Under the pieces are notes generated by a model that was given only the letters and a program-made list of their open reading frames with translations, was not told the DNA's origin and searched no databases. The position numbers and the translations under genes were made by a program. Shown here in pieces: positions 1 to 17,474 of a DNA stretch of 64,000 bases. Every line of letters begins with the position of its first letter. The stretch's first letter is position 1. Source of the stretch: Streptomyces hundungensis (GTDB lineage Bacteria; Actinomycetota; Actinomycetes; Streptomycetales; Streptomycetaceae). Where the stretch lies: positions 3,720,001 to 3,784,000 of the forward strand of contig NZ_CP032698.1 of NCBI RefSeq assembly GCF_003627815.1. Reading direction: 5' to 3'.

Positions 1-1311
1 GCGATGCTGGACTGGCGCAGGAACCAGCAGATGCGGCCCTCGTACACCAAGGGTGGGGTCGTGGGCATGGCCTACACGGCACCCGCGTACGTGGATCCCG
101 ACAACGCTTGGTACGCGTCGCTCGGACTCACGCACAGCTATAACCGCGAGGGCATCGACGACGCCCAGAAGCGGGCGATGGCCATCGATGCCAACGATCC
201 GTCGCTGGCCGTGATCAACCGCCTGGGCGAGAACGCTGACGCATCGCGACACCTGCTGGGGAACAACGACTCCGGCAAGCGCTTCGCCGCGGATCTGGTC
301 GACTTCCACTGGCAGACGCCCGGGGCGATAGCGGTTGACGATTCGGACGGGCCGCGCCAGGTGCTCACCCTGGCGGCCACCGACCGTACCCCGGCGCATA
401 TCGACGAGTCCGGCACGGCCGCCGCCAACATCCTTGCCGCCGCGGCCAAGGAGAAGGACCACTTCGACGGGCGCAACGGCCACGAGAAGGACGAGTACCC
501 GACGTTCCCCAACGGCACCGCGGTCGCGCTGGCCGGCATCACGGCAACCTGGGCCGATGACCTGGGTGGTACCGGGATGTCAGCGCCTGACGGAGTGGCG
601 GGCTACGACCCCTCGAACCACGTCCTGGTCGGCAACAATGCGGACACGGTCAAGGTCATGCGGCTGTTCGCCAAGGACAATCCAGGCGCTACGGCGATGT
701 TCGACGTCGTACTGCACGAGAAGGTCTCGACGGCAGCGGGGAGCAAGGATCCGACGAAGAGCCTGACCGACATGGGCAATACGGCGGGAATGCTCACGAA
801 GGCCAAAGTTGCGGAAAATTACAGCGCGGCACAGCAGATCGACGAGGAGCACAAGACCAACAAGATCATTCTCGACAGCGCCGGTACCCTGTTCGGTTTC
901 ATACCCGCTCCCAAATTGGGCGAAGGCGCGTCGAAACTCGCCGAGAAGATTGCCGAGAAGAGCCTCAAGTATCCCCAGAACCTCGCGGTCATCGGCCGGA
1001 CGATCGTCGCTCCCCAAACGGACCCCTTCTCCACGGACAACGCCTCGAAGCAGGAGGCTCTGAGCGTGACCGCGGCAAAAGAGCAGTACAGGTCCTTCAT
1101 CCCGTCGATAGCACAGGGGATGGTCAGATCGGGCGCAGTCCCGCCGCCCACGGGCAGCTCCTGGTACGACCCCCAGACGGGAACCATCTCCTCCGACGCC
1201 AGCCACGACCCCACGTTCCAGAGCTGGTGGAACATGGCTCACGGCGACAACTACCAGAAGGCCTTCAAGGACGGCTTCGACAATGCAGAGGTGTCGCCCG
1301 ATGGTAAATAG
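1..1311 (+). CDS. Large ESX-associated hypothetical protein, 3' part
   Basis: The frame is open at the window edge, so this is probably the C-terminal part of a larger protein; an ATG at position 4 could only be internal. The 435 visible residues are soluble and Ala/Asp-rich with no membrane segment. They contain helical stretches such as SGTAAANILAAAAKEKDHFD. The style recalls the long helical proteins encoded beside WXG100 genes in actinobacteria (DUF6571-like), but this is inference only. The stop overlaps the start of the following lipoprotein gene by 11 bases, which suggests translational coupling. No catalytic motif was recognised. Confidence 0.6.
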   Translation, partial: AMLDWRRNQQMRPSYTKGGVVGMAYTAPAYVDPDNAWYASLGLTHSYNREGIDDAQKRAMAIDANDPSLAVINRLGENADASRHLLGNNDSGKRFAADLVDFHWQTPGAIAVDDSDGPRQVLTLAATDRTPAHIDESGTAAANILAAAAKEKDHFDGRNGHEKDEYPTFPNGTAVALAGITATWADDLGGTGMSAPDGVAGYDPSNHVLVGNNADTVKVMRLFAKDNPGATAMFDVVLHEKVSTAAGSKDPTKSLTDMGNTAGMLTKAKVAENYSAAQQIDEEHKTNKIILDSAGTLFGFIPAPKLGEGASKLAEKIAEKSLKYPQNLAVIGRTIVAPQTDPFSTDNASKQEALSVTAAKEQYRSFIPSIAQGMVRSGAVPPPTGSSWYDPQTGTISSDASHDPTFQSWWNMAHGDNYQKAFKDGFDNAEVSPDGK

Positions 1312-2332
1312 GAACCGGGCCCGAAGCGCCGTCCTGGCCGCGACCGCCGCTGTACTCGTACTGTCTCTCGGGTCATGTTCGGATGACCAGAACGAAGACA
1401 GCGCGCGGATTCCCGTAGCGGAGCCGGGAAAGGTCGCCGCCTTCGCGCTGGGCGAGTTGAGCACGACATACGACCTCGACCACACCGCTGTGAACGAGAG
1501 TGGCCACATCACCTCGGACAAGGCCGGGAACATTTATCTGGCCAGCGATTCCAACAGCCCTCTCATGCCCATCCTGCGCATGACTCCTGAGGGCAAGGTC
1601 AGCCAGTTCACGAAAATCAAGGAGAGCCACTCCGACTCCGGATTCACCGCCGCTCCGGACGGTTCTTTGGTGACCGGCGGAGGAGACGGTCTGTGGCGGG
1701 TGAGCTCGAAGGGCACCGTCACTTCTTTGGAGTCACAGCGCCGATTCAAGCTCCCGAACCCGATCGGTATCCGGCCGGACGGCACGGTCGTCGTCATCGA
1801 CGGCGAGAGCGTGTGGTCCCTGAAGGACGGCCAGGCGGCCGAGCTCCTGACGTTCCCGGCGAACCAGGGCCGGGTCCGCGGAGCCGTCGCACCGGACGGA
1901 ACCATCTACCTCTCCAACAGCCGCCTCGACAATCTCCGCGTGCTGGCTCCCGGCAGCCCACCCAGGACCCTGACGATCCAGGGCGACCTGCCAGGAGCCG
2001 GCAAACCGCTCTCCGAGATGGCGATCATGCAGATGACTCCGGCCACCGACGGGGGTGTGTACGCGAAGGTGCAGTGGGATCCCCAGAAGGGCGGCGGTGG
2101 CTTCGTCTACATCGTGCACATCGCTCCTTCGGGCACCCTCACCGCCATGGCGAGGGCGTCCGAACAAGGAAAGTCGTGCGCGGCCGGAGAGCAGTACGCC
2201 GCGCTGGACAATCCCTGTGTCATGCCGTGGTTCCTCGCACGGAGCGGCGACCAGGTACTCGCCCTGGGCGACATCTATGACCCGGAGCGCAAGCCGTCGC
2301 CCGCCCTCGCAATCCACGCTCCCCGCGGGTGA
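1301..2332 (+). CDS. Lipoprotein with NHL-like beta-propeller
   Basis: This is a 343-residue exported lipoprotein. It has a basic N-terminus, a hydrophobic stretch and a lipobox LGSC with Cys26. The mature part contains repeated strands of the form 'pDGTvyv' (for example APDGTIYLSNSR and IRPDGTVVVIDG), typical of NHL or SMP-30-type beta-propellers. These usually bind proteins or small ligands at the cell surface. ATG 1301 was chosen over ATG 1283 because GAGG lies 9 bases upstream and the lipobox is then at the usual distance. It overlaps the preceding gene and lies upstream of a WXG100 gene, so it probably belongs to the secretion-island transcription unit. The true ligand is unknown. Confidence 0.75.
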   Translation: MVNRNRARSAVLAATAAVLVLSLGSCSDDQNEDSARIPVAEPGKVAAFALGELSTTYDLDHTAVNESGHITSDKAGNIYLASDSNSPLMPILRMTPEGKVSQFTKIKESHSDSGFTAAPDGSLVTGGGDGLWRVSSKGTVTSLESQRRFKLPNPIGIRPDGTVVVIDGESVWSLKDGQAAELLTFPANQGRVRGAVAPDGTIYLSNSRLDNLRVLAPGSPPRTLTIQGDLPGAGKPLSEMAIMQMTPATDGGVYAKVQWDPQKGGGGFVYIVHIAPSGTLTAMARASEQGKSCAAGEQYAALDNPCVMPWFLARSGDQVLALGDIYDPERKPSPALAIHAPRG

Positions 2333-2426
2333 GGACACAACTGCCCGGCACCGGAAGATCAGAGCCGAAGCGCGCTCCCGTTACGGCCCTCCCCCACCAT
2401 GCCGACACCCAGCAAAGGAGATGACG

Positions 2427-2711
2427 ATGGGCATACCCCAGGAAGACCGTCTGGATTACGCGTGCCGCCAGGACATGAACGCTATCGAGTCCGCCGCGAA
2501 CGAGATCCGCACGGCCATCAGGAATGTCGAGTCCATGATGCCGAAGACCTGGATCGGGAAGAAGGCCGACAACTGGCGCACCGATCATGACGGGCGCATG
2601 AAGCGGCTGAAGACCCTGTTCGACTCGTTCCCGGCCGAGGAGAACCGGCTGGTGGAGAAGGCGCGTCAGGACCAGGCGAAGATGAACCAGAAGATGCACG
2701 GCGGAGGCTGA
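2427..2711 (+). CDS. WXG100-family protein A
   Basis: This 94-residue, mostly helical protein carries W-I-G at residues 42-44, the central turn expected of WXG100 (ESAT-6-like) helical hairpins. Charged amphipathic helices lie on both sides. Proteins of this family are small dimeric substrates or adaptors of type VII secretion ATPases. AAAGGAG ends 6 bases before ATG 2427, so this start is preferred over the ATG at 2421. There is no signal peptide and no clear YxxxD/E export motif at the C-terminus. A lipoprotein gene lies on each side. An EssC-type ATPase is encoded 2.4 kb downstream on the other strand. Confidence 0.75.
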   Translation: MGIPQEDRLDYACRQDMNAIESAANEIRTAIRNVESMMPKTWIGKKADNWRTDHDGRMKRLKTLFDSFPAEENRLVEKARQDQAKMNQKMHGGG

Positions 2712-2899
2712 GTCCCGGTGGCGCCGGCCGGGCGATGTGTTCAACCGGCCGGATCGGCGTCCCGAGGGATGGATCACCTCACAATTCCATACCGGCGCAT
2801 CCCAAATGCCCTGCTTCACACCCGAGTTCGCTCTGGCGAAGCGGGCGCCGTCTCGTTAGCGTCGGTCTCTCAACCACACCAGCCTCATCGGGAGCTCCA

Positions 2900-3556
2900 G
2901 TGAACCGTCGCGCCCTGCCGGCCGTCGCCGCACTCACCGCAACGGTTGCTCTGCTGCTGACTGCCTGCGGCAGCAACGACAAGCCCAAGGACTCGGACAA
3001 GATCGCCGGGGCCGACCAGAGTGCCAAGCCCTCGGCGTCGGCTTCACCGAGCGCGTCGGCCCCTGCGGGAGTCGAGCGCCCGAAGATCGAGCTGCCCGCC
3101 GACCTCACGATGACGTTCGAGCCCGCGAACACCGGCGACCCGGTGAAGGAAGCGGTCCTCTCGGACGGCGCGGAGCGCATGCGTGCGGTGAACGTCGCCA
3201 TCACCGGCGGGGACCCGAAGTACGCCGCGCTGAACTACTACAACTCCGGCAAGGCGCTGGAAGCCGCCTCGGCCTGGGTGGAGAAGTTCAAGAAGGCCGG
3301 CCTGTCGATGACCGGGTCGCTGCGCTACTACGATCGCCAAGTCACCCTGAACCAGGACAAGTCGGCTTCGCTGAACTTCTGTGCCGACGAGAGCAAGGGC
3401 TACAGCAAGGACATCAAGACCGGCAAGGCCAAGGTCACCACCCCGTCGAAGAACGACTTCATCCTCTACAGCACCAGGCTCGAAAAGAACTCCGCCGGGG
3501 TGTGGCAGACCACTCGAATCGTTTCGACCGCGGGGGCCGAGAAATGCGTGAAATAA
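2900..3556 (+). CDS. Lipoprotein of unknown function
   Basis: The 218-residue product starts at GTG 2900, with GGGAG 6 bases upstream. It has a lipobox LTAC with Cys23, then a Ser/Ala/Pro-rich linker (residues about 35-60). A compact domain of about 150 residues follows, with one internal Cys and a C-terminal Cys that could form a disulphide. The domain reads like the small actinobacterial surface lipoproteins that carry an NTF2-like fold, but no family was identified. Its stop codon overlaps the next start by 13 bases, so this gene and the exported protein at 3544 are probably co-translated. Confidence 0.7.
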   Translation: MNRRALPAVAALTATVALLLTACGSNDKPKDSDKIAGADQSAKPSASASPSASAPAGVERPKIELPADLTMTFEPANTGDPVKEAVLSDGAERMRAVNVAITGGDPKYAALNYYNSGKALEAASAWVEKFKKAGLSMTGSLRYYDRQVTLNQDKSASLNFCADESKGYSKDIKTGKAKVTTPSKNDFILYSTRLEKNSAGVWQTTRIVSTAGAEKCVK

Positions 3557-4578
3557 GCAGGGGACGACTGGGCGCGACCATAGCGACTGCCGCGCTCTTC
3601 GCCGTCGCGGGTGCGCCCACCGCGTGGGCCGGGGTCACCCCTGGGGACGGCACCCGGGAGACCGATACGCCCAAGGGCGACGCGAAGCCGGACGGCACCC
3701 TCAGCGCCACGGCCGGCGGCGTGGTCTACGACCGGTCGAGGAACGGCTCCGGCAGCGCCGTGGGCCCCCTCGCCCCCGTCGGCAACTGGACGCCTCCACC
3801 CTGCTGGTACGCCCCCAAGTACAGCCCTGCGGAGTTCAAGGCGTACGTCGAGCCGATCTGGAGCGTCGACTCCACCGGCGCCGCCTGGGACGCCTCGCAG
3901 CGCGATCGCTACGTCAATGGAAAGCCCTACACCAACTTCAACCTGGACAAGGCGGGCAAGGGCTACTGGTGGGACTCGTACGTCGACACGAGCTATCCAC
4001 CGGGCTGGGACGCCTGCAACAAGCCCTACTTCTGGGTCGACAAGGGCGCACCGCCGCCCGCCGACGTGCCCGAAGCCATCACTCCCGAGATCCTCGCCAA
4101 GCTGGCGTACGCGGAGATTCGCGTACCGGCCACCCAGGTGACCCTGAAGCCCGACGGCACCAGCAAGGTGAACCTGCCGACCTGGGCGTGGCTGGACAAG
4201 ACCGACTTCCGCCCCGTCTCGGTCACCGCGTCCGTCCCCGCGCTCGGCATCTCGGCGACCACGACCGCCTCCCCGGTCTCCCTCAAACTGGAGCCCGGTA
4301 CCGCCGACGCCAGCCTCTACCCCGCTTCCGGCGAGTGCCCCATCAACGCGGACGGCTCCATCGGCACGCCGTACGAGGCGGGCAGCGCCGACAAGGCCCC
4401 GCCCTGCGGCGTGACATACCGCCGAGCTACCAGCGGTGCCCCCTACAACCTGAAGGCCACCGTCACCTGGAAGATCCACTGGGTCGGGACCGGCACGCCA
4501 GGCGGTGATCTGCCGGACGGCACCTTCGGCCATGACCAGCAGGTGACCGTGCAGGAGATCCAGGCGGTCAACCGCTGA
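3544..4578 (+). CDS. Exported protein with Trp/Tyr-rich N-terminal domain
   Basis: This is a 344-residue protein with a signal peptide: basic residues, a hydrophobic Ala-rich core, and a likely signal peptidase I site after PTAWA near residue 23. The mature N-terminal region (residues about 75-170) is rich in Trp, Tyr and Pro (WTPPPCWYAPKYSP, GKGYWWDSY). The C-terminal half has beta-strand character and paired cysteines. The ATG at 3544 lies inside the end of the upstream lipoprotein gene and is preceded by GGGGGCCGAG. No enzymatic motif was found. A role at the cell surface together with the neighbouring WXG100 proteins is inferred from position only. Confidence 0.7.
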   Translation: MREISRGRLGATIATAALFAVAGAPTAWAGVTPGDGTRETDTPKGDAKPDGTLSATAGGVVYDRSRNGSGSAVGPLAPVGNWTPPPCWYAPKYSPAEFKAYVEPIWSVDSTGAAWDASQRDRYVNGKPYTNFNLDKAGKGYWWDSYVDTSYPPGWDACNKPYFWVDKGAPPPADVPEAITPEILAKLAYAEIRVPATQVTLKPDGTSKVNLPTWAWLDKTDFRPVSVTASVPALGISATTTASPVSLKLEPGTADASLYPASGECPINADGSIGTPYEAGSADKAPPCGVTYRRATSGAPYNLKATVTWKIHWVGTGTPGGDLPDGTFGHDQQVTVQEIQAVNR

Positions 4579-4654
4579 GACCGCAACGAGCCCTCGGGCG
4601 ACGGGTCTTGTGAACACTCCTACCCGGCCTGTACAGGCGGGGCGGGAGGTGCGA

Positions 4655-4660
4655 TAGCGT
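4655..4660 (+). promoter_or_regulatory. Possible -10 element of the WXG100-B gene
   Basis: TAGCGT fits the TANNNT form of Streptomyces -10 elements and lies 59 bases before the ATG at 4719. The same TAGCGTCG string occurs at 2857, 38 bases before the GTG of the lipoprotein gene at 2900. This may indicate a shared promoter type for the two units. No convincing -35 element was seen. Confidence 0.3.
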
Positions 4661-4679
4661 CGAGTGGTACCAGATAGAT

Positions 4680-4697
4680 TTACTGATTACCCAGTAA
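4680..4697. promoter_or_regulatory. Inverted repeat upstream of the WXG100-B gene
   Basis: TTACTG and CAGTAA form a perfect 6-bp inverted repeat with a 6-base centre. The ribosome site GGGGAGG at 4706-4712 lies just downstream. It could be an operator or an RNA hairpin in the leader. Its A+T content is unusual for this chromosome. Confidence 0.35.
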
Positions 4698-4718
4698 GAA
4701 ATCACGGGGAGGAACCCG

Positions 4719-4979
4719 ATGGAACGCGGTGCAAGTCTCAAGGAACTCAGGGACCTGGCGAAGCTGTTCGGTCGCAGCGCGGGCGACCTACAGACGCTCA
4801 TCACCAACCTGAACTCGGCGACGTCCGGCAGCACCGGCTACTGGAAGGGCCCCAAGGCCGACCAGTTCCGCAAGGACTGGGAGGACGCCCGCGGGACCTT
4901 CTCCAAGTGGGTCGACACCCTGCACGACGCTCAGAAGTCCGCGTCCACCAACGCCGACAACATCGAGCGCGCCACCTGA
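4719..4979 (+). CDS. WXG100-family protein B
   Basis: This 86-residue protein has the family layout: a helix, W-K-G at residues 42-44, and a second helix ending in a polar tail (NADNIERAT). Length and motif position match EsxA/EsxB-type WXG100 proteins, which are exported by or bind to FtsK/SpoIIIE-type ATPases. A strong ribosome site GGGGAGG ends 6 bases before the ATG. The gene is last in the plus-strand unit. It faces the convergent EssC-type gene, separated by a long hairpin. It is a plausible substrate of that ATPase. Confidence 0.85.
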   Translation: MERGASLKELRDLAKLFGRSAGDLQTLITNLNSATSGSTGYWKGPKADQFRKDWEDARGTFSKWVDTLHDAQKSASTNADNIERAT

Positions 4980-5011
4980 TCCGCACCGACACAGTCGGAT
5001 CGAGCAACATC

Positions 5012-5044
5012 GCTGGGGCGTCCACCACGGGTGGGCGCCCCAGC
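5012..5044. terminator. Bidirectional hairpin terminator
   Basis: GCTGGGGCG pairs with CGCCCCAGC, and the stem continues through one T-G wobble into CCACC/GGTGG, giving a 15-bp stem with a 3-base loop. It lies between two convergent genes, 32 bases after the stop at 4979 and 35 bases from the stop at 5080. There is no long T-tract, as is common in Streptomyces. Confidence 0.75.
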
Positions 5045-5079
5045 GGCTTACCCGGCGGGGCGTGAGGACCGCGAGGTCC

Positions 5080-8000
5080 TCACCCCCTCATCACTCCCTG
5101 GACCGGACGGAACGCACCGCCCGAAACCAGCAGTCCGCCGCCCGGCCGTCCGCCGCCGGTGTTGGACGGCAGGCGGATGCTGAACAGCTCGCCCTCCTGG
5201 GAGTTCTGGGGGTTGAGGAGCAGGCCGTTGCGGGACTTGCGGGCAGCCGTGACGAAGCCCCGGTACTGGGAGGCCAGACTGTCCGTCGTGCCGGCCGCGA
5301 TCAGGCCGAGCCCCCCGTCTACCCCCTTGCGCAGGACGGCTTCCAGCGCCTCGTCGAGCCGGGTGTCGTAGAGCAGCTCGGCGTCGTCCGCCAGGATCAC
5401 GTAGGGGCGGCCCTCCGCCTTCTCCACCAACTCCTCCAGGTCGTCCTCCCTGGCCTCACCGTCGAGCACGCCCAGGACGCCTTCGCGCCCTTCCAGATCG
5501 CGCAGGGGCGACCGCCGGGGAGCGACCAGGACCAGCGGTGTGCCCTGGGCCAGCAGGGAATCCGCCGCGCACATCAGAGCCGTGGAGCGCCCGGACTTGG
5601 GCGGGCCGCCAATGACGAAGCCGGGTCCGGACTCCTCCAAGTCGATTCCCACGGGGGCCAGTTCGTCGCCGCCGACGGCCAAAAGGGCCCACAACTTGGA
5701 CGGCACCACGAAGTCGGGATCCAGTGCCATCGCCTCGCCGGCGGTAATGTGCGCCGGAAGCGCGTCCACACGCATGGGGCGCAGGCGTGCCGGTGTACGG
5801 CCGTGCGTCGCGCGCGCCTGTTCGGCGATCTCACGGAGCATCCGCACCTGCGCCTGGCCGTTCGGGTCCTCGTCGAGGAGGGCGATCTGCGTCTCTTCCG
5901 TACCGGTGTCGGTGATCCGCAGGGCGCGCCCGGGGGGCATGTTCTTGGGCACCTCGCGCGGTTGCAACCCCGCCATGGAGTAGTCGTTGGGGTCGGCGAA
6001 CCGCAGGATCAGGCGGTCTTGGAACGCGGATGCCACCATGCCGCTCAGACCGCTGCGGTCGGCCGTCATGACGACCTTCAGGCCGACCGCCGAACCCTCC
6101 CGGAAGATCCGCTGGGCCTGCTCGATGAGCTGGCCGTAGTTGTAGTTCTCGAATGTGGAGAAGTAACCCTCCCAGTTGTCGAGGAGCAGCACCATCCAGG
6201 GCAACCGGTCCTCGGGCGCGGCCGAGGCGCGCTGCTCGGCCGCGCTGGACGCACCTTCCATGGCGAGCAGTTGCTGGCGTCGGCTGATCTCGGCGAGCAG
6301 CCGGTCGAGCAGTCGGCGAACACGGTCGGGTTCGTCGCGGTTGACCACCGCGCCGACATGCGGAAGGCGTACCAGGGGCAACAGTGCGTTGGAGCCGCAG
6401 TCGATCGCGTAGACGTGAACATCACGCGGTGAGGCGGTCCTGGCGAGCGAGCCGGCCAGGGTGCGCAACGCCGTCGACCGGCCCGAGCGGGCGCCGCCGG
6501 CCAGCATCGTGTGTTCGCCGTCGACGAGGTCGAGAGCGAAGGGCTTGCGGGCCTGCTGGGCGGGCAGGTCGGTGAGGGCGTAACCGATGGGCGGGACGTC
6601 ACCGTGCGCGGGCGCGGGGCCCGCCAGGGCGGTCAGCGAATCGAGCGTGACGTGCTCGGGCAGCGGGGGCAGCCAGGGACTGCGGGGCGGCGGGAAGCCC
6701 ATCTTGTCGGCGCCGTCACGGATCGCGTCGACGAGCACGGCGAGGTCGGTGACCATCGTGCCGTCGTCCTCGGACTCCGCGGTCCTGGGCAGCGGACGGC
6801 TGAACGAGGTCCAGGGCAGCGGGGCGAGGACCGCCTTGGGGCCGCTCTTGCCCGTGGCCGGCCGCCGGCCACCGATGCGCGCCGACTGGACACCGACCAG
6901 CGACTGCGCTCCGGAGCGGACATAGGCGCGGCCGGGCGTGGACTTGGCGATGGCCCCGGCGTCCGCGGCGTCGATGACGTCCATGGACTCGCTGCCGTCC
7001 GTCACCCGCAGGGCGATGCGCAGGTTGGTGTTGGCCCGGATGTCGGCGCTGACCACACCGGCCGGGCGCTGGGTCGCGAGCACCAGGTGGACGCCGAGCG
7101 AGCGGCCTCGGCGGGCGATGTCGACGAGTCCCGCGATGAAGTCGGGGAGTTCGGCGACGAGCGAGGCGAACTCGTCGATGACCAGGACGAGCCGCGGCAT
7201 CGGCTCCAGCTCGGGCCGCAGCTTGCGGGTGTCGTTGTAGTCCTCGATGTCCTTGGTGCCGGTGTCGAAGAGGATCGTCTCGCGCCGGTGCAGTTCGGCG
7301 GCGAGCGAGGCGAGGGCACGTTCGGTGAGGTGGGCGTCGAGGTCGCTGACCATGCCGACGGTGTGCGGGAGGCGGGCGCAGTCCATGAAGGCGCTGCCGC
7401 CCTTGTAGTCGATGAGCACGTAGTTGAGGGCGTCCGGCCGGTTGGCTATGGCCAGCGAGGCGATGATCGTCTGGAGCAGTTCTGACTTACCGGCGCCGGT
7501 GGTGCCGGCGACCAGCGCGTGCGGGCCGTCCCGGCGGATGTCCAGGGTGAAGGTGCCGTCGGCGGCGACGCCGATGGGGGCCGCCGTGGTCGAGCCGCCG
7601 GCCCGCCAGATCCGCTCGATGTCGGCGCCGGTCGGGTCGGGCAGGCCGAGCAGGCTGAGCAACCGGGCCGCGGTGGGCAACGCGCCGCCCGCGTCGTCCC
7701 GGCTGACGTCGCGGACCGGGGCGAGGGAGCGGGCGATGAGATCGCACCAGTCGGGGCCGACCTGATCGGCGAGCACCTCGCCGACCGATTCCAGGCCCGA
7801 ACCGCGCAGGAGTACATGAGTCGGCGACTGCGGAGTCCAACTCACCACGGCTTTGCACTCCTCGGGGAGGAGCCGGTCGTCCTCGTCGAGGCAGAGCGCG
7901 AAAAGGCCGTACTGGGGCCCTTCCTGGAGGAGTTGGGGCACGCCGGGCATGCGACGCAGCAGTCGCGCGCCGTCGAGGACGAGCAGGACGTGCGGCTCGT

Positions 8001-9537
8001 CCCCCGGGGCGCCACTCATCATGGTCGAGCTCTCCCGGACGGCCTTGCGCCGGGCCAGCTCGTTGACGAGCTCGTTCACGCGTCGGGCGATCGTCTCGCT
8101 GTCGGAACCGACCAGGGCGACACAGTCCTGGCCCTGCTGCGGGGCGGTGTGCGGGAGCCAGTGTGCCCAGTGCCAGTCCGCCCCCGCCTGGGACGAGGCC
8201 GCCAGAAAGACGATCGAGAGTTCGCGGGGGCTGTGCAGCACGGCGGCCTGGACCGCGAGCCAGTGCGCGGTGGCGAGTGCTCGCGGCCGGTCGCCGGAGA
8301 CACCGACGACGCCCAGCTCGGGGAAGGACAAGGTCACGGGCAGGTGGGACAGGAGCGGTGGGGCGGGCGGCTCCTCACCGTAGCCCGCGCCCTGACCGTG
8401 GACGAGAGCGATGTCGGCGGGCAAACTGCCGACGCCGACCCGGATCCGCATCACGTCGACGTCGGTGCGACGACGCTCCCACAGCCGGCGCCGGGGGCCG
8501 GTGGCGAAGAGCAACACTTCCGCCGGGTCGGGATTGTCGACCCGGCGGTTTCGCTGATCCTCTTTGCCGAGCCGCACCAACTCGGCCTCGTACTCGGCGA
8601 GTTCCAGCTTGTACTGCTTGAGGGACTTCTTGTGCCGCTGCTTGCCGTCACGGTTGTCGCTGAACCACTGGCCCAGCATCATCACGGGGGTCATCGCGCA
8701 GAACAGGAGCATGTAGACCTGTTTGGTCATGAAGTACATGGCCAGGCCGAAGACCATCGGCGTGATCGCGGCGATCATGTGGAAGCGGGCGCGCTCGGAC
8801 TTGGACGGCAGAACGGGCACGGAAAGCCGAGGGCGGGGCCGGACCGGCGAGAGGCGGGGCGGCCGGTTGTAGGCGAGCCCGCCCTCTCCGGTCGCGGAAA
8901 GGTGGGCGTCGGGTTCGCTGACCTCCTCCAGGACGAACAGCGAGTCCCCCGCCCTGACGACGCCGCCGAGCGGCCAGTCCTGCGCGTCCGCTATTTCATC
9001 GTCGTCGAGCAACACCGTGGAGCCGGGCTGGGGGGTGAGAGTGGCCCGGCCTCGCATGTCGACGGTGATCTGGGCGGCGACGGGTGCCAGCAGCGGGTCG
9101 GGCGCCGCGAGGGTACAGGTCGCGGCCGATCCGAGGGTTGCGGTGCCGACAGCGAGTCGAACGACCCGCCCCGCACCGGGCCCTCCGGCGACCCGCAGCT
9201 CGTAGCGCCCCATGGGCTCGCCCTTGCGCAGCAGCGGACCCAGGGAGTTGTCGATGGATATGCGCATGCCGTCCCGAAGGATCTGGCCCACGGGAGTAGC
9301 GGGATCGCACAGGTGACCATCCGCCCACAGAGCGGGCTCGGCACCGCGGTCACCGTAGCTCGGGGCGAGAACGGTGCCCGGAAGCGCCACGACCACCGGC
9401 GACGGCCGCCCCGGCCCGGCCCCCTCGGCGGCGGCCAGAGCATGCGCGACATCGCGCGCGGTCGCGTCGTCATCGGCGTTGACCATGACGTCGTACGGGG
9501 GTGCCCCCTGCTGCACGACGGTCACCAGGACTCGCAT
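5080..9537 (-). CDS. eccC: EssC/EccC-type FtsK/SpoIIIE ATPase of type VII secretion
   Basis: This 1485-residue motor ATPase is membrane-bound. An N-terminal ubiquitin-like segment (residues about 1-75) is followed by an FHA-like domain (about 85-205). Hydrophobic segments (about 250-290, IAAITPMVFGLAMYFM and YMLLFCAMTPVMMLGQ) come next. Three FtsK-type ATPase modules then follow. Module 1 has Walker A GAGKS near residue 682 and Walker B LVLVIDEF near 787. Modules 2 and 3 carry altered P-loops, GARSGRST near 1016 and GPPKSGRST near 1314. This domain order is that of firmicute EssC rather than mycobacterial EccC. Export of WXG100 substrates through the membrane is the known family role. The start at 9537 has GGGGGAGGAAG upstream. 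Genes for partner membrane proteins are absent from the window. Confidence 0.9.
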   Translation of the reverse strand: MRVLVTVVQQGAPPYDVMVNADDDATARDVAHALAAAEGAGPGRPSPVVVALPGTVLAPSYGDRGAEPALWADGHLCDPATPVGQILRDGMRISIDNSLGPLLRKGEPMGRYELRVAGGPGAGRVVRLAVGTATLGSAATCTLAAPDPLLAPVAAQITVDMRGRATLTPQPGSTVLLDDDEIADAQDWPLGGVVRAGDSLFVLEEVSEPDAHLSATGEGGLAYNRPPRLSPVRPRPRLSVPVLPSKSERARFHMIAAITPMVFGLAMYFMTKQVYMLLFCAMTPVMMLGQWFSDNRDGKQRHKKSLKQYKLELAEYEAELVRLGKEDQRNRRVDNPDPAEVLLFATGPRRRLWERRRTDVDVMRIRVGVGSLPADIALVHGQGAGYGEEPPAPPLLSHLPVTLSFPELGVVGVSGDRPRALATAHWLAVQAAVLHSPRELSIVFLAASSQAGADWHWAHWLPHTAPQQGQDCVALVGSDSETIARRVNELVNELARRKAVRESSTMMSGAPGDEPHVLLVLDGARLLRRMPGVPQLLQEGPQYGLFALCLDEDDRLLPEECKAVVSWTPQSPTHVLLRGSGLESVGEVLADQVGPDWCDLIARSLAPVRDVSRDDAGGALPTAARLLSLLGLPDPTGADIERIWRAGGSTTAAPIGVAADGTFTLDIRRDGPHALVAGTTGAGKSELLQTIIASLAIANRPDALNYVLIDYKGGSAFMDCARLPHTVGMVSDLDAHLTERALASLAAELHRRETILFDTGTKDIEDYNDTRKLRPELEPMPRLVLVIDEFASLVAELPDFIAGLVDIARRGRSLGVHLVLATQRPAGVVSADIRANTNLRIALRVTDGSESMDVIDAADAGAIAKSTPGRAYVRSGAQSLVGVQSARIGGRRPATGKSGPKAVLAPLPWTSFSRPLPRTAESEDDGTMVTDLAVLVDAIRDGADKMGFPPPRSPWLPPLPEHVTLDSLTALAGPAPAHGDVPPIGYALTDLPAQQARKPFALDLVDGEHTMLAGGARSGRSTALRTLAGSLARTASPRDVHVYAIDCGSNALLPLVRLPHVGAVVNRDEPDRVRRLLDRLLAEISRRQQLLAMEGASSAAEQRASAAPEDRLPWMVLLLDNWEGYFSTFENYNYGQLIEQAQRIFREGSAVGLKVVMTADRSGLSGMVASAFQDRLILRFADPNDYSMAGLQPREVPKNMPPGRALRITDTGTEETQIALLDEDPNGQAQVRMLREIAEQARATHGRTPARLRPMRVDALPAHITAGEAMALDPDFVVPSKLWALLAVGGDELAPVGIDLEESGPGFVIGGPPKSGRSTALMCAADSLLAQGTPLVLVAPRRSPLRDLEGREGVLGVLDGEAREDDLEELVEKAEGRPYVILADDAELLYDTRLDEALEAVLRKGVDGGLGLIAAGTTDSLASQYRGFVTAARKSRNGLLLNPQNSQEGELFSIRLPSNTGGGRPGGGLLVSGGAFRPVQGVMRG

Positions 9538-9690
9538 GGTCGTCTTCCTCCCCCGCCGGCCCGCCCGGCCCCTCGCCCTGCTTCGGCCCACCCGAGGCTA
9601 ATGGCTACCGCCGTCGCGGCAGGACCGAGGGTATGCGGTGACCGGCGTCGGCCTCCCGCTCGCGGGTTCGGCAACCGCCGTTCCCGCCCC

Positions 9691-10146
9691 CTACGAGAGG
9701 TGGGGCTGGGAATACACGAGGACGGGAACGTGCGGTGCGAACGCGTCCACCGCGGCCTGGAGACGTTCGGGATCGAGCCGCCAGAAGTTGATGGGGCGGC
9801 TGGCCAGGAACAGTTCGTGATCCACGTGGGGCGCCAGTTTGGAGGTCTTCGCGCGACTGAGGTCTGCGTTCATTCCGGGCAAGCGCGGCGCCCCCGGCTT
9901 GCGCTGCAACCCGACGTACTGGATCGGGTTGGCAGCGGTGATCTGGGACCACACCACCACGGAGGTGATGTCCTTCCACGGTACGAAGGCGAGCTGACTC
10001 CTGTACCGCGCAGGTGCTCCCCCCAACAGGACGCCTGTGTCGTCGACCCGGAAGGCGACCAGTTTCTCCCACTTCATGCCGCCGAGCAGTTGGAAGGGCG
10101 TACGACGGAAATGGGCTTCGTACACGAGCGGGTTCACGTCGGTCAT
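9691..10146 (-). CDS. Hypothetical protein of the secretion island
   Basis: A 151-residue soluble protein with mixed strand and helix character and no signal or membrane segment. The middle (ARYRSQLAFVPWKDITSVVVW) and the C-terminus (APHVPVLVYSQPHLS) resemble PH-like or YdbT-type beta-rich domains, but only loosely. GAGGA lies upstream of the ATG at 10146. It lies 48 bases downstream of a WXG100 gene and 153 bases upstream of the EssC-type gene, in the same direction, so a shared transcript is likely. Function unknown. Confidence 0.6.
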   Translation of the reverse strand: MTDVNPLVYEAHFRRTPFQLLGGMKWEKLVAFRVDDTGVLLGGAPARYRSQLAFVPWKDITSVVVWSQITAANPIQYVGLQRKPGAPRLPGMNADLSRAKTSKLAPHVDHELFLASRPINFWRLDPERLQAAVDAFAPHVPVLVYSQPHLS

Positions 10147-10194
10147 CAGATCCTCGCGGGCAGCACGGGTGGTGGGACGGCTCGGGCGACGCAC

Positions 10195-10461
10195 CTACTT
10201 CGCGGCACCGGACTTCTTCTTGCTCTCCTCATCCTGCACGCGCTGAAGTATTTTGTTGTACTGGCCCCTGGCCGCGTCCAAGGCGTCGTGAATGGCCTTG
10301 CGTCGGCCATTCCACTCCTTGCGGAACCGGTCGCCCGCCGGCCCCTGCCAGGCATCCGTTCCCGACGTCGCGTCAACCGCGTCCAGCGTTTTGTCGATCT
10401 CGTCCGCGAACCGCTTCAGGTTGTTGAGGTCTTTCCTGCATTCTTCGACGCGGTCAGTCAT
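10195..10461 (-). CDS. WXG100-family protein C
   Basis: An 88-residue protein with W-Q-G at residues 38-40 between two amphipathic helices and a lysine-rich tail (EESKKKSGAAK), which matches the WXG100 fold. ATG 10461 has GGGGAGGA 7 bases upstream; an extended start at 10530 would overlap the preceding gene and lacks such a site. It belongs to the minus-strand unit that ends in the EssC-type ATPase gene and is probably a substrate or partner of it. With the proteins at 2427 and 4719 it makes three WXG100-size proteins around one ATPase. Confidence 0.8.
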   Translation of the reverse strand: MTDRVEECRKDLNNLKRFADEIDKTLDAVDATSGTDAWQGPAGDRFRKEWNGRRKAIHDALDAARGQYNKILQRVQDEESKKKSGAAK

Positions 10462-10486
10462 GGGTTTCCTCCCCGTGAGTGCTGTG

Positions 10487-11326
10487 TCAGGCGGCCGGTT
10501 GCTTGATGAGTTTGACGATCCGCTCCTCAAGGGTCCGCTCGCTGACCTCCTGCGCGGTTATGCCCGTAGGGTCCTGCGGAGACTCGACATGCACGGCCCA
10601 GACCTCGCGGTCGCTGGCGTAGGTCGTGAGGAGCGGACCGGGCCGGGCGTCGAGCACCATCAACTGGCTGACCACCAGGGCGTTGTCGATCACGCGCGCG
10701 AGCGACTTGTCCACAGCGCCCGTCGTGAGCGCCGAGGCGTCCAGCCGGATCGTCTTGCCGTCCCGGTCGGCCACGCCGAATGGATCGACCAGCGCCTGAA
10801 CCATCTTCGCGGCGTCCTGTGCCTTGCTTGCCAGGGTGAAGATGTGCATGCCACCTCCGGTGACCTGCTCGATCAGCAGAAGTTCCGGCGAGTGCACGAA
10901 GACGAAGGCCGTCACAGTGCCGTTGGAGGTCTGCTGTTCCACCGCCAAGGCGCGGGAAGCCGTTCGTCGCAGGGTCAGGGCCATGCTGACCTCGGGGGTG
11001 ACCTTCATGTCCACGTCCGCGGTGAGTCCCGAGTCGGTGCCCTCGGACTTCAGGACGGCGTCGAGCTCGGCGATGTTCGTCACCTCCACCGCCCCTCGCG
11101 AGACGAGGGAGCGCAACGCTGTCCCCAGGACCCACTGGCGCTGCTCGTCCGAAAGAGTCGCCAGATGGGGTGTCGGTACGACGACGTCTTCGAGCGCGTC
11201 CGGGTCGAGCACGGCAAGTTCTTCGTCGGTCAATTTAATGAGTGACTGGGTGCCGCCCTCTGCGAGAGCGGCACCGACGAGCTCGCGAAATTTATCCAGC
11301 TCGATGTCGAGTTCAGGAGTTGGCAT
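10487..11326 (-). CDS. Hypothetical protein, possibly EspG-like in role
   Basis: A 279-residue cytosolic-looking protein with no signal peptide or membrane segment. The N-terminal third is acidic and helical (KLTDEELAVLDPDALEDVVV). The rest alternates strands and helices (VSMALTLRRTASRALAVEQQ, MHIFTLASKAQDAAKMVQAL). Length and position beside WXG100 and EssC-type genes are like the EspG chaperones of mycobacterial ESX loci, but no EspG motif can be claimed. AGGA precedes the ATG at 11326. It lies 25 bases upstream of the WXG100-C gene, in the same direction. Confidence 0.6.
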   Translation of the reverse strand: MPTPELDIELDKFRELVGAALAEGGTQSLIKLTDEELAVLDPDALEDVVVPTPHLATLSDEQRQWVLGTALRSLVSRGAVEVTNIAELDAVLKSEGTDSGLTADVDMKVTPEVSMALTLRRTASRALAVEQQTSNGTVTAFVFVHSPELLLIEQVTGGGMHIFTLASKAQDAAKMVQALVDPFGVADRDGKTIRLDASALTTGAVDKSLARVIDNALVVSQLMVLDARPGPLLTTYASDREVWAVHVESPQDPTGITAQEVSERTLEERIVKLIKQPAA

Positions 11327-11384
11327 GCCGATTCCTAGAGTTGTTCGGTCGGTGTGAAGGGGGCTTGCCGCGTTCGGGGCACGC

Positions 11385-12458
11385 CTACCAGAATTTGAAC
11401 TTCTTGACGGCGTTGGGCACCAGGTTCGTGACCGCGCTCTTGGCGCCGTCTGCGATCTCTCTCCCCTTGTCCGCCACGCTGCCGGCCCACTTGGAGGTGG
11501 CGTTCCAGGCCTTCTTGGCTCCGTTCTTGATCGACTCACGGTTGTCCCACGCCCAGGTCCCGATGAAGTAGGCGCCCGCCACGCCGAGCGCCGCCCAGCC
11601 GACCACGGGCACCGCGGCCGCCACCGCGGCACTCGCACCAAGGGCTCCGGCCGCCGCACTGCCGCCCAGTACGGCCGCCGCTCCTCCTGCTTCCACGACG
11701 CCCATCCCGCGGTCGAATCCACCCAGGACGCCTTTGTGGTCGGGAACGACCATCTCCTTGACGCCGTGCACGATGGCGAGGGGCAGACCGACTCGGTCGA
11801 GGAGGCTGAGGCCGGGCCCCTGGGCCAGGAGCGTGGGCGGAAGCGGGATCTTCAGCTTCGTAGTCAGGAAGGCTCGCAGCCCCTGCTGCCACTTCCAGGG
11901 TTCCTGGTAGAGCCCCTCGATCTTCTGGAGCTTCAGGAGCTCCCGCATGTAGTCGATGTTCTTCAGCTTCAGCCGGTCACCCGTGATGCCGAAGTATTTA
12001 TTCAATTCGAGGACGGCTTTGGCGCCGGCCACATTCTGCCCCTGCGCCCAACGTTGGTAGAGCTGGAGAGATGCCTCTATGCCGGAGGCTATCTTCGTTA
12101 GCCGCAACGGGGTCGTAACGTTCCTCTTTATTTCCTTGAACTCATCGACATATTGACCGACTTCACCCTTGTGCTCCTGAAACTCCTTCCAGGTCTGCAA
12201 CACGCCGGTCATGCCCATGAACATCAGCTCGACGGCCGGATCCGCCTCGAGGATCCCGAGCCGGTTGCGTACGTCCTTGGCCTGATCCCGGGACCACGAG
12301 GCATCCTGGGTAATGCGCTTCAGGTTTCCCTGGTCGCCTTCCCACTTGGCGAGGATCCCGGAAACCAGTGGCCCCTGAATGGAGAGTGCACCGTCCGCCA
12401 CATCCAGCGCGGCGGCCAGCCGACGCGCCTTCTCCGTGGTCATGCCTCTGAACGTCAT
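11385..12458 (-). CDS. WXG-headed protein with glycine-zipper hydrophobic region
   Basis: A 357-residue protein. Residues 1-70 look like a WXG100 hairpin (W-E-G at 39-41). A long helical middle (about 70-240) follows, rich in Lys/Glu/Leu. Next comes a Gly/Ala-rich hydrophobic stretch (about 262-312, with GGSAAAGALGASAAVAAA and WAALGVAGAYFIG). The basic tail has the form of repeated lysine-rich helices (NGAKKAWNATSKWAGSVADK). The arrangement of export head, helical stalk and membrane-active region is typical of type VII effectors, but no toxin motif or immunity gene was recognised. ATG 12458 is preceded by GGGGG; ATG 12443 is an alternative. Confidence 0.6.
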   Translation of the reverse strand: MTFRGMTTEKARRLAAALDVADGALSIQGPLVSGILAKWEGDQGNLKRITQDASWSRDQAKDVRNRLGILEADPAVELMFMGMTGVLQTWKEFQEHKGEVGQYVDEFKEIKRNVTTPLRLTKIASGIEASLQLYQRWAQGQNVAGAKAVLELNKYFGITGDRLKLKNIDYMRELLKLQKIEGLYQEPWKWQQGLRAFLTTKLKIPLPPTLLAQGPGLSLLDRVGLPLAIVHGVKEMVVPDHKGVLGGFDRGMGVVEAGGAAAVLGGSAAAGALGASAAVAAAVPVVGWAALGVAGAYFIGTWAWDNRESIKNGAKKAWNATSKWAGSVADKGREIADGAKSAVTNLVPNAVKKFKFW

Positions 12459-12991
12459 GCGAACCCCCGTTGACGATGTCTGCGGTCCCTCTGCGCGGAG
12501 CCGCGTCGCCGCCCCGCTGTCGGCGTGCCCCCCGAAGCGCGTCGACCGGTCTTGACGCGACCTGATCCTGCCGCCCGCCCCACGGAATCGCGGTTCCGCG
12601 GGCGCGACAGCAAACTCCACACCCCGAAGAGGCACTCGTGCACCTCCACCAAGGCAGAGGCGCAGCCAAGGGTATTGACGTTAACCGGGATGCGTACCGT
12701 TTCGCCAGGCGGGATCTTGACGTCGAGTGGCCGCCGTAGATCTACCGGAACACCCCTCGCCACCTCAGTTGCCAACAAGCCTCGTTGACGCTCGCCCGGG
12801 CGCCCCGCACAACGAATTCCGGGTACTTCACAAGATCCGTCCCGGGCTGGACAGCGTTCCGCGTATCGCAGTCGTTCCCTCAGGGGCACTCGACGACGCC
12901 CCACGATGAACGGCCGCGGTGCGGGGCGCCGTAACTTTGCGAACCGATCGGGAGAGCACCCGATCCCGCCCCGTGGGACACCAGCCTGTCA
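12459..12991. other. 533-bp region without an assigned gene
   Basis: This gap separates the Ser/Thr kinase gene from the next minus-strand gene. A minus-strand frame is open across 12455-12904. Around 12640-12790 it encodes a plausible segment (PVDLRRPLDVKIPPGETVRI), but it has no convincing start, ribosome site or codon bias throughout. The most likely content is the promoter of the minus-strand secretion unit plus a possible gene remnant. No hairpin of note was seen. Confidence 0.4.
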
Positions 12992-15190
12992 TCAGCCGCC
13001 CTGCTTCCCCAACACCCCCGTGGGCCGCCCCGCCTCCGCCTCCTGGGACTCGAAGCGGAGTGTGCCGTCGGGCTGGAGGGTGTACGTCATCGTCGCGGTG
13101 CCCCCGGTGCAGCCGATGGTTCCCGGGTTCGCGGGGTCCGTGCGTTCGGTGATGTGCAGGACGCGGGCCGTCGCCGAGTCCAGCGTGCCGATGCCGTGGC
13201 AGACGAGCGGGCCGAGGGTGGTCGTGGTGCGCACCACGTCCGTGCCCTTCGCGCCCTTGGTGATCACCGCGGTGTAGGCGTACCCCGAGGTGCCGTTGTC
13301 CTGGGTGAGTACGCCCTTCCAGGTGCCGACCAACTCGCTTGGTACGGAGCCCAGTTGCGGTCCCGTGCCGGGCTGTCCCGAGCCGGGCGTGCCGGGTGGG
13401 GTCGACGCCGTGCCCGATGACGCGGGCGGGCGGGCGCTCGTGTGGTCGGCGTCGCCGCCCCCGTTCGGCAGCAGGCCGGCGAGGAACGCGCCGCCGACCG
13501 TGACCCCGGCCAGCGCCCCCGCGACCGCGAGGACCACCGTGCAGCTGACCCGGCGGCCACGGCCGCGCTCGCCGGGCTCGGCGGCGGTCGCCACCGACAG
13601 GGCCACGCGCGAGTGCCGCTCGGCGTTGCTCGGCGGGGCGGTGGGCCTCGGGGGCGTAGAGGGTGCCTGGAGGCCCGCCCCGCCTGGGCGTGTGCGCGGG
13701 TCGGGGGGTGTGCGCGGGCCGGTGGGTGCACGCGGGCCGGGGAACGGGCCCGGCTCGCGGCCGTTCTCTGGCCGGTCCGGCTCGCGGCCGTACGGGAGCG
13801 GGTCCGACGCGTGGCGGTTCTCGGACGGGCCCGGCTCCCGGCCGTACGGGATCGGGCCCGGCTCGTGGAGATTCCCGGGCGGGTCCGACGCGTGGCCGTA
13901 CGAGAACGAGCCCGGCTCGCGGAGATCCCCGGGCGAGCCCGGATCCCGGCCGTACGAGAACGGACCCGGCTCGCGGAGAACCCCGGACGGGCCCGGCTCG
14001 CGGCCGTTCTCGGGCCGGTCCGGCTCGCGGCCGTACGGGAACGGGTCCGACGCGTGGCGGTTCTCGGACGGGCCCGGCTCCCGGCCGTACGGGGGGATCG
14101 GGTCCGGATCCCGGAGATTCCCGGGCGGGTCCGGATCCCGGTCGCACGAGGCGCCCGGCGGGCCGAAGACCCCGGCGGTCGGCGAGCCGCCCACGGCCGG
14201 GCCCCCCGGGCCCGCGCGCTCCGCACTCCCCCCGATCGCCGGGCTGGTGAACGGGATCGGGCCCGAGCCGGTCGCCGGCTCCTCGGGCTCCAGGTCGAGC
14301 AGCCGTACCGCGGAGCGGCTGACCTCCTCGACGAGTGGGCCCGGCAGCCAGCCCTCGCCCACCAGCGCGGCCGCCCCGGCCGGAGCCAGTCGGGCCGCGA
14401 GGGCGGTGGGGGACGGGCGGGCGGCCGGGTCCTTGGCGAGGCAGCCGGCGACCACGTCGCGCAGCTCGCCGGTCAGGCCCGCGCCCAGCTCGGCCGACTC
14501 GTGCACCACCTTGTAGAGGAGCGCGGCCGAGGAGTCGCCGGGGAAGGGCGGCCGGCCGGTCGCCGCGTACGCGAGGACCGCGCCGAGCGAGAAGACGTCG
14601 GCGGCGCCCGTCACCTGCCTGCTCAGGATCTGCTCGGGCGCCATATAGCCCGGCGAGCCGATGGAGACGCCGGTCGCGGTGAGGGAGGCGGTGCCTTCGG
14701 TGGCGCGGGCGATGCCGAAGTCGATCAGGCGGGGGCCGTCGAGGGTGAGCAACACGTTCGACGGCTTCACGTCCCGGTGGACGAGGCCGAGGGCGTGCAC
14801 GGCGGCCAGCGCCTCGGCGAGCCCCGCGCCCAGGACCCGTACCGAACGCTCGGGAAGGGGGCCCCGGTCCAGGACCGCCTGGGTCAGCGAGGGTCCCGCG
14901 ACATAGCCGGTCGCCACCCACGGCACCGGCGCGTCCGGGTCCGCGTCGAGCACCGGCGCGGTCCATCGGCCGCCCACCCGCCGGGCCGCCTCGACCTCGT
15001 GGCGAAAGCGCGCCCGGAACTGCTCGTCCAGGGCGAAGTGCGGGTGCACCACCTTGACCGCGACCGTGCGGCCGCCCGCGCTGCGCCCCAGGTACACCCG
15101 GCCCATGCCGCCCGCCCCGAGCCGGCCGAGCAGCCGATAGGCGCCGATCGTCCGCGGTTCGCCCGCTTCCAGCGGCTGCAACGACTGCAT
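12992..15190 (-). CDS. Transmembrane PASTA-less Ser/Thr protein kinase
   Basis: A 732-residue Hanks-type kinase. The kinase domain (about 15-275) shows the glycine loop GAGGMG at 25-30, the ATP-binding lysine K46, HRDVKPSN, DFGIA and GYMAPEQ, so it should be active. A Pro/Arg/Glu-rich linker (about 290-520) is built of near-repeats such as EPGPSENRHASDP. One membrane segment (about 545-572, VVLAVAGALAGVTVGGAFLA) precedes an external domain of about 115 residues that begins ELVGTWKGVL, a lipocalin-like start. GGGGGAG precedes the ATG at 15190. It may phosphorylate FHA-containing partners; the adjacent EssC-type protein has an FHA-like domain, which is suggestive but unproven. Confidence 0.9.
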   Translation of the reverse strand: MQSLQPLEAGEPRTIGAYRLLGRLGAGGMGRVYLGRSAGGRTVAVKVVHPHFALDEQFRARFRHEVEAARRVGGRWTAPVLDADPDAPVPWVATGYVAGPSLTQAVLDRGPLPERSVRVLGAGLAEALAAVHALGLVHRDVKPSNVLLTLDGPRLIDFGIARATEGTASLTATGVSIGSPGYMAPEQILSRQVTGAADVFSLGAVLAYAATGRPPFPGDSSAALLYKVVHESAELGAGLTGELRDVVAGCLAKDPAARPSPTALAARLAPAGAAALVGEGWLPGPLVEEVSRSAVRLLDLEPEEPATGSGPIPFTSPAIGGSAERAGPGGPAVGGSPTAGVFGPPGASCDRDPDPPGNLRDPDPIPPYGREPGPSENRHASDPFPYGREPDRPENGREPGPSGVLREPGPFSYGRDPGSPGDLREPGSFSYGHASDPPGNLHEPGPIPYGREPGPSENRHASDPLPYGREPDRPENGREPGPFPGPRAPTGPRTPPDPRTRPGGAGLQAPSTPPRPTAPPSNAERHSRVALSVATAAEPGERGRGRRVSCTVVLAVAGALAGVTVGGAFLAGLLPNGGGDADHTSARPPASSGTASTPPGTPGSGQPGTGPQLGSVPSELVGTWKGVLTQDNGTSGYAYTAVITKGAKGTDVVRTTTTLGPLVCHGIGTLDSATARVLHITERTDPANPGTIGCTGGTATMTYTLQPDGTLRFESQEAEAGRPTGVLGKQGG
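13745..14096. repeat. Long direct repeat inside the kinase linker
   Basis: A segment of about 108 bp beginning at 13745 recurs at 13988 with only a few changes, an offset of 243 bp or 81 codons. Shorter units of the same sequence (GGCCGTACGGGA and relatives) lie between them. The repeat keeps the reading frame, so copy number can change the linker length without breaking the kinase. Confidence 0.75.
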
Positions 15191-15420
15191 CGCGGTGCTC
15201 CCCCAACGCCCAACCTGGTCAAGCCGGTCGCACAGCAGCGTAGAGCCGTACGTGCCCAGGATCACCCTCGATCGAGACGGATCCGATGCTTGGGTGGGAG
15301 AACCGAACACCGTCCTCCGCCCTCTTCGATGGCGTAGTTCGTGCGCAATCACCCAAAACCCCGCCCGGCCACCGCTCGGAGCGCCATGTTCCCGCCACCA
15401 GATCCCCGGAGTTTCCGCAT

Positions 15421-16598: not shown

Positions 16599-17474
<876 letters not shown>

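Follow-up and report, generated by a model that had tools for sequence, protein, structure and literature searches.

A 64,000-nucleotide stretch of the Streptomyces hundungensis chromosome (the window; positions 3,720,001–3,784,000 on one 8.39-Mb contig, 70.5% G+C) carries genes of a type VII-like secretion system built around an FtsK/EssC-type ATPase, here called G. On balance, we favor the interpretation that these genes encode a variant of type VII secretion of Streptomyces and Nonomuraea, which shares one island with a Tad pilus and operates by the mechanism proposed below. From left to right, the window contains genes A (partial), B, C, D, E, and F on the plus strand and G, H, I, J, and K on the minus strand, followed by a kinase, an esterase lipoprotein (M), mqnA, and a cold-shock gene. 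Gene models came from a codon-usage caller trained on the fetched loci, with the start codons then set by eye. The features are as follows.

1..1311, plus strand: gene A, the 3' part of a 686-amino-acid (aa) protein, a candidate substrate; its open reading frame (ORF) crosses the window edge and was fetched whole.
1301..2332, plus strand: gene B, a beta-propeller (Vgb/NHL-like) lipoprotein, accessory and not conserved (PF24684, E 2.4e-4, below the cut-off).
2421..2711, plus strand: gene C, a 96-aa WXG100-like protein (W-x-G at 44) that matches the family of I.
2900..3556, plus strand: gene D, a lipoprotein pairing with E, with paralogues within the Tad cluster.
3544..4578, plus strand: gene E, an exported protein of a Tad-linked family, with strong matches in 15 of 61 genomes.
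4719..4979, plus strand: gene F, a WXG100 protein (EsxA/TsxA-like) adjoining the ATPase (PF06013, E 4.9e-9).
5080..9537, minus strand: gene G, a membrane ATPase with a YukD-like domain, one FHA domain, a hydrophobic segment read as two transmembrane helices, and three P-loop domains (D1–D3).
9238..9537, minus strand: the putative YukD/EsaB-like (ubiquitin-like) N-terminal domain of G, approximately residues 1–100, from profile comparison.
8917..9216, minus strand: the single FHA domain of G, residues 108–207, with degenerate phosphothreonine contacts.
7468..7512, minus strand: Walker A motif of D1 of G, intact (GTTGAGKSE).
6460..6501, minus strand: P-loop of D2 of G, with Lys replaced by Arg (GARSGRST).
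5572..5613, minus strand: P-loop of D3 of G, with Lys replaced by Arg (GPPKSGRST).
9691..10149, minus strand: gene H, a 152-aa accessory protein of no known family, with homologues beside the ATPase at loci L084 and L090.
10195..10461, minus strand: gene I, a WXG100-like partner in the K-J-I cassette (W-x-G at 38), found with J and K in relatives.
10487..11326, minus strand: gene J, a predicted 279-aa EspG-fold chaperone, from its model fold.
11385..12443, minus strand: gene K, 352 aa (start codon uncertain), with a WXG-like head, a conserved glycine/alanine-rich segment, and a C-terminal Phe-Trp.
12992..15265, minus strand: Ser/Thr kinase of the mqnA-mqnC neighborhood (PF00069, 6.3e-38); context, no part of the system.
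15421..16533: esterase lipoprotein M, between the kinase and mqnA; context, no part of the system.
16599..17465, minus strand: mqnA, the marker of the insertion site (PF02621, E 2.7e-75), with the cold-shock gene next at 17773; context, no part of the system.

G is 1485 aa long from an ATG, or 1503 aa from a GTG at 9591. SCO4508 is presumably the S. coelicolor orthologue, a locus tag mentioned in one listed paper, on promoters (PMC4625935), and in none together with FtsK. Comparison with NCBIfam gave 579.5 bits for EssC (TIGR03928), 435.9 for EccCa, and 338.6 for EccCb, each below the model's own cut-off, and 71 and 39 bits for the DNA-translocase models FtsK and TraB, respectively. In line with the broad definition of type VII secretion, G is related to EccC/EssC and is an FtsK-type membrane ATPase that has multiple P-loop domains. 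An earlier note, made from the DNA alone, had placed an FtsK/EssC-type ATPase at the center of these genes, which the EssC score against the 71 bits for FtsK bears out; it had also given this ATPase the layout of firmicute EssC, from which G departs, its head consisting of an apparent YukD-like domain and one FHA domain instead of two. Profile comparison (hhalign in local mode, as also used for J) matched the head to the YukD domains of EccD with a probability of 91.8% (E 7e-7, score 40.6; 14 control profiles scored at most 19.3), and residues ~1–100 adopt a beta-beta-alpha-beta order in a predicted structure of moderate confidence, which is consistent with a YukD-like domain fused into the ATPase. 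The FHA domain at residues 108–207 lacks the usual phosphothreonine contacts, as read by eye against the FHA consensus. From the P-loop motifs, D1 is probably the only catalytic domain.

The type VII genes extend beyond the left window edge through gene A, whose start (genome 3,719,251) precedes the window by 750 bases, into a Tad pilus cluster that starts 2.1 kb left of the window. This cluster comprises a CpaB-like gene, a TadZ candidate, TadA, two T2SSF proteins, a Flp-like gene, TadE-like genes, two D paralogues, one E paralogue, a large BTAD protein, and a prepilin peptidase, and beyond it lie mqnC and then ubiE. The components by which we recognize a Tad system, namely a TadA-type ATPase (T2SSE, 7e-30), two T2SSF proteins (9.5e-10 and 2.4e-10), TadE-like pseudopilins (1.3e-14 and 6.6e-10), and a prepilin peptidase (Peptidase_A24, 3e-14), were all found with Pfam matches. 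The CpaB candidate contains a SAF domain (6.6e-6) and scored below the cut-off of the CpaB model TIGR03177. The putative Flp gene (84 aa) matched Flp_Fap at E 0.06 only and the putative TadZ matched no family, both being named from gene order.

To relate the two gene groups across genomes, we used two sets. The first consists of 61 Streptomyces genomes, the present one included, in which membership of the ATPase class required 50% identity or more across part of the length; nine ATPase candidates were scored per genome, and absence of EccC from a single genome was not taken as proof. The ATPase class was found in 16 of the 61 genomes. Of these, 15 also have a TadA orthologue of 83% identity or more, versus 0 of the 45 others, where the best TadA-family match reached 51% (Fisher p 2.3e-13, kinship not corrected for); the single miss, G001, is 79% complete. 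ATPase and TadA lie less than 34 kb apart in 13 of the 14 genomes where the distance was measurable on one contig. Homologues of E with E < 1e-60 occur in the same 15 genomes as the TadA orthologue, and the weak E matches of three more genomes are located beside other, more distant TadA homologues. Since the occurrence of E tracks TadA, D and E seem to belong to the Tad side, though one copy sits among the type VII genes here. Eleven of the 45 genomes outside the class carry an orphan ATPase of a second class (e.g., L042–L053), 43–46% identical to G and with a similar head, and have no such Tad orthologue; this ATPase is often accompanied by WXG100 pairs and by long proteins of up to 2,117 residues that cluster with the WXG-headed family described below.

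The second set was reached through J and shares only S. buecherae (G031) with the first. Of its 31 listed J loci, those other than L102, L104, and L107 entered the ATPase search (28 genomes), and the TadA search covered these 28 except G196, G197, G198, and G203. All 18 searched genomes with a close J (at least 46% identity) also carry an ATPase at 52–89% identity and a TadA orthologue at 78–97% identity (12 Streptomyces and 6 Nonomuraea; 17 new), while six control genomes of other genera had no such TadA orthologue (best 40%). The ATPase and TadA are 2.4–23.1 kb apart on one contig in 13 of the 18 and on different contigs in the other five; in Nonomuraea, the distance is 2.4–3.0 kb in five of six, the sixth having them on different contigs. 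On an MqnA tree of 22 genomes (without G032, G037, and G047, whose mqnA lies outside the fetched stretches), island presence requires seven changes, of which three are imposed by branches with good support; in 3/3 supported independent pairs, the two traits changed jointly. The inheritance of the type VII genes and Tad as one island suggests that the two machines work together.

Analysis of the small proteins confirmed the four W-x-G turns near residue 40 reported in the earlier note, with the tryptophan at position 44 in C, 42 in F, 38 in I, and 37 in K (355-aa reading; 34 from the start at 12443). F alone passed the Pfam WXG100 cut-off (36.8 bits), I matched weakly, and C and K had no match in the Pfam scan. 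C, F, and I cluster in one family with proteins of relatives. In 13 of 14 islands, the next called gene to the ATPase belongs to the WXG100 family; in the remaining island, that of G010, a run of N lies there. The lipoproteins, propeller lipoprotein, and exported protein of that note were likewise recovered from the translations, B, D, and M as lipobox proteins and E as exported. The structural model of J has the EspG fold, and a PDB sequence search with the J profile gave no match; at the level of fold only, J is predicted to be an EspG-type chaperone. The K-J-I cassette was called complete in 11 of 12 Streptomyces loci (none of its genes was called at L085) and in part in four of six Nonomuraea loci. 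K and its relatives end in Phe-Trp, by which the ATPase or the chaperone might recognize them. Distant J relatives (24–32% identity in 11 aligned) at L100–L103 and L105–L112, from Cellulomonas, Nocardioides, Cellulosimicrobium, and others, adjoin a WXG-headed protein and other small genes, and the ATPase matches in the 10 of these genomes searched reach at most 37% identity.

In the proposed mechanism, the EspG-fold protein J would keep K, with its WXG head, and the small partner protein I in the cytoplasm, and the membrane ATPase G, hexameric by analogy and with its putative built-in YukD-like domain, would take up WXG100 proteins together with their longer partners and push them through the membrane. 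Surface contact or access to the wall would come from the Tad pilus, inherited with these genes, and from the D/E pair of lipoprotein and exported protein, and the substrates, possibly K and A here and WXG-headed RHS proteins in some relatives, would act on neighboring cells. Most other islands of the first set have a different cassette beside the same ATPase class and Tad genes: along with WXG100 genes, the WXG-headed family occurs in 10 of 14 islands, with long forms in G011 and G032 that read as RHS proteins, and a family of ~215 residues has 31 copies across 10 of 14. The one long WXG-headed form scanned matched T7SS_signal (4.5e-8) and RHS_repeat (1.3e-73). RHS proteins have been linked with other type VII subtypes (PMC11217815), and the Tad-like Kil apparatus of Myxococcus serves contact-dependent killing (PMC8460266); Kil thus resembles the present system in tying Tad-like machinery to such killing and differs in being Gram-negative, with no type VII ATPase mentioned in the abstract. 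By analogy with these cases, the island may serve antagonism on contact.

Several observations weigh against this interpretation. The 50 matches listed for the fold search with the head of G included FHA entries and no ubiquitin-like entry, because FHA matches took up the list. By sequence, the link of J to EspG was not significant (P 0.0025, probability 12%), and PF14011 was matched by 0 of 25 J members. No YxxxD/E motif was found in C, F, I, or K; K is more conserved than would be expected of a classical polymorphic toxin, and no immunity gene was identified next to K or A. The species also has a main ESX locus. As to Tad, ATPase and TadA are 1.27 Mb apart in G012, and in G183 and G193 the contig of TadA bears another ATPase (51% identity), the J-type ATPase being on a different contig. 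The kinship-corrected p for joint change was 0.25, not significant because three supported pairs are too few.

The type VII genes may alternatively form a real export system to which Tad is only a fellow passenger, gained and lost with it as one block; we consider this possible, if on the unlikely side. Comparison of the insertion site across genomes bears on this. At sites without such an ATPase beside the kinase, the order csp-mqnA-kinase-mqnC-ubiE was found in 12/12 fetched genomes (11 without the ATPase class among the scored candidates, plus S. buecherae, whose island lies at another place). The gap between the kinase and mqnC is 34–211 bp in nine of these and 720–1063 bp in three, against 28,210 bp in the present genome, where it contains the type VII and Tad genes in one block. 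The three wide gaps (L068, L071, and L072) hold a gene 50–60% identical to the prepilin peptidase, which we read as a relic of the Tad end. Block loss is probable, since 3 of the 12 island-less sites retain this gene, and it fits the passenger explanation, as does the kinship-corrected test. Against that explanation, the pair stays together in another genus, Nonomuraea, and at another place in S. buecherae, where the island is 1.6 Mb from mqnA and the Tad genes lie between the ATPase and K-J-I; both are kept in G012 though far apart; the 11 of 61 genomes with the 43–46% related orphan ATPase have no such Tad orthologue; and T7SSg and T7SSh of Bacillota also pair type VII with Tad (PMC11217815). 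A stronger form of the favored interpretation, a single hybrid machine, is doubtful. In it, the type VII ATPase, which has no known channel partners of its own, would pass WXG-headed substrates, once bound by the chaperone, on to Tad, whose platform and pilus would serve as envelope route or contact trigger.

The earlier note had raised the possibility of a partial system that borrows membrane parts from the main ESX locus. We now regard a partial ESX system that takes EccB, EccD, EccE, and mycosin from the main locus of the same cell as very unlikely. Such a locus is present in this genome (eccB, eccD, and mycosin), and EspG is a T7SSa-type chaperone fold. The single eccB (PF05108; 2,443,050), adjoined by a mycosin gene, and the single YukD/EccD (2,435,635) each lie ~1.28 Mb from the window, so that the reported absence of eccB, eccD, eccE, and mycosin from the window holds for the first two; for EccE and mycosin, family scans found none among the window's island genes, and no genome-wide search was made. 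Against borrowing, eccB was lacking in 7 of the 14 island genomes with a completeness of 93% or more (G009, G010, G011, G024, G027, G040, and G047), and also in G050 (82% complete). It was present in the other seven, in G001, and in 4/4 non-island genomes tested, and its loss was not significantly associated with the island (Fisher p 0.12, four control genomes). YukD/EccD was absent from G010, G011, and G024, that is, from three of the nine island-bearing genomes covered, and present in the other six, including G009, which lacks eccB and has one YukD/EccD match, and in 17/17 non-island genomes of the same search. The head of G moreover appears to bear its own YukD-like domain. Borrowed ESX membrane parts as a general rule are largely ruled out by the island genomes without eccB or YukD/EccD. 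As a separate observation, the main ESX eccC (L009:11163–15130, genome 2,436,163–2,440,130) is split between two overlapping ORFs of 902 and 464 aa, which looks like a frameshift in D2, due either to a sequencing error or to genuine loss.

It is highly improbable that the island is a type VII system under kinase control, like T7SSd, in which phosphothreonine signals to the FHA domain. The adjacent kinase gene and the FHA fold had led the earlier note to propose phospho-control. However, the kinase is a resident of the menaquinone neighborhood, because the gene order persists in 12/12 sites without the system, and its place between mqnA and mqnC there rules it out as a component; close kinase homologues also occur in genomes without the system. 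The FHA contacts are lost relative to the FHA consensus, and among the called island genes only G exceeds 1,000 residues, and therefore no TsdI-like protein is present. The probability that G translocates DNA in conjugation or cell division, as its FtsK/SpoIIIE fold and weak matches to the FtsK and TraB models might indicate, is negligible given 579 bits to EssC versus 71 and 39, the YukD-like and FHA head, the EspG-fold chaperone, and the WXG100-family neighbor in 13/14 islands. The proposal of a separate type VII-like export system, acting in neither process, is upheld by that chaperone, the WXG100 proteins, and the RHS protein with T7SS_signal of a relative.

The pairing of type VII with Tad has been described for T7SSg and T7SSh of Bacillota (Garrett, Higginson and Palmer 2024, PMC11217815), and the discussion there, citing the small number of genomes available, leaves undecided whether the neighborhood has a functional meaning or is a coincidence. 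Both resemble the present system in their WXG100 proteins, EssC/EccC ATPase, and adjacent Tad genes (one exception here, G012), T7SSh also in an EspG-like protein and T7SSg in a beta-propeller protein. They differ in phylum, Bacillota there and Actinomycetota here, and in their ATPases: TsgC and TshC are described without FHA and with a separate ubiquitin-like protein, whereas G has one FHA and, apparently, a built-in YukD-like domain. The D2 and D3 P-loops carry Arg here, and P-loops are not compared in the text on T7SSg and T7SSh. With T7SSa/ESX, where EspG goes with PE-PPE pairs, the island shares a chaperone of EspG fold next to a long WXG-headed protein and its short partner, but has no EccB or EccD of its own and no YxxxD/E (C, F, I, and K), and its EspG link is not significant by sequence. 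With T7SSb/Ess-Yuk, it shares FHA on the ATPase, EssC being the best single NCBIfam model, but there is one FHA and not two, the YukD-like domain appears fused to the ATPase, and no EssA, EssB/YukC, or EsaA family occurs among the window's island genes, no genome-wide search having been made. T7SSd (Olsenella and Bifidobacterium; PMC11217815) is likewise of Actinomycetota, with an FHA ATPase and no free ubiquitin-like protein, but differs in that here the FHA contacts are lost and neither a dedicated kinase (TsdD) component nor a TsdI-like protein is found. The system falls within the broad definition of type VII secretion and has the Tad neighborhood of T7SSg/h, but lacks, among the features tested, defining ones of T7SSa, T7SSb, T7SSd, and T7SSg/h, which suggests a form outside the published classification (PMC11217815). 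That classification names Actinomycetota for T7SSa and T7SSd only, and Streptomyces is absent from its main text. Some Streptomyces alarmone-synthetase toxins adjoin type VII structural genes, for which the account gives no class (PMC12691689). Our literature search, mostly of listings, found no description of this Streptomyces type VII-Tad system.

These results add another phylum in which type VII and Tad are paired in many genomes; one island has a different chromosomal location, and block loss is probable. They make the question of coupling testable, the hosts being amenable to laboratory work. If the hybrid machine were real, type VII-Tad hybrids would be a general kind of secretion machine, with T7SSg/h and the Streptomyces system as separate instances. 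An ATPase with arginine P-loops and an apparently built-in YukD-like domain, and a predicted EspG-fold chaperone where relatives can lack eccB, bear on what a minimal type VII machine is.

Among the remaining genes, A gave no match in Pfam and NCBIfam scans; it has a homologue at L082 (9e-37), and a 497-aa protein encoded next to the ATPase of S. buecherae shows weak similarity to its head (25%, E 0.001). B has one clear homologue (2e-11) among loci L082–L112, and the same scans gave no family for H. Esterase lipoprotein M was ruled out as a part, being a chromosomal neighbor; it also lies between the kinase and mqnA at L061, L064, and L065, 3 of the 12 island-less sites. Elsewhere in the genome (5.275 Mb; L010:6974–13602), two kinase-matching genes adjoin the gene of a 1046-aa protein that combines an FHA domain (5.5e-16) with a single FtsK-type domain.

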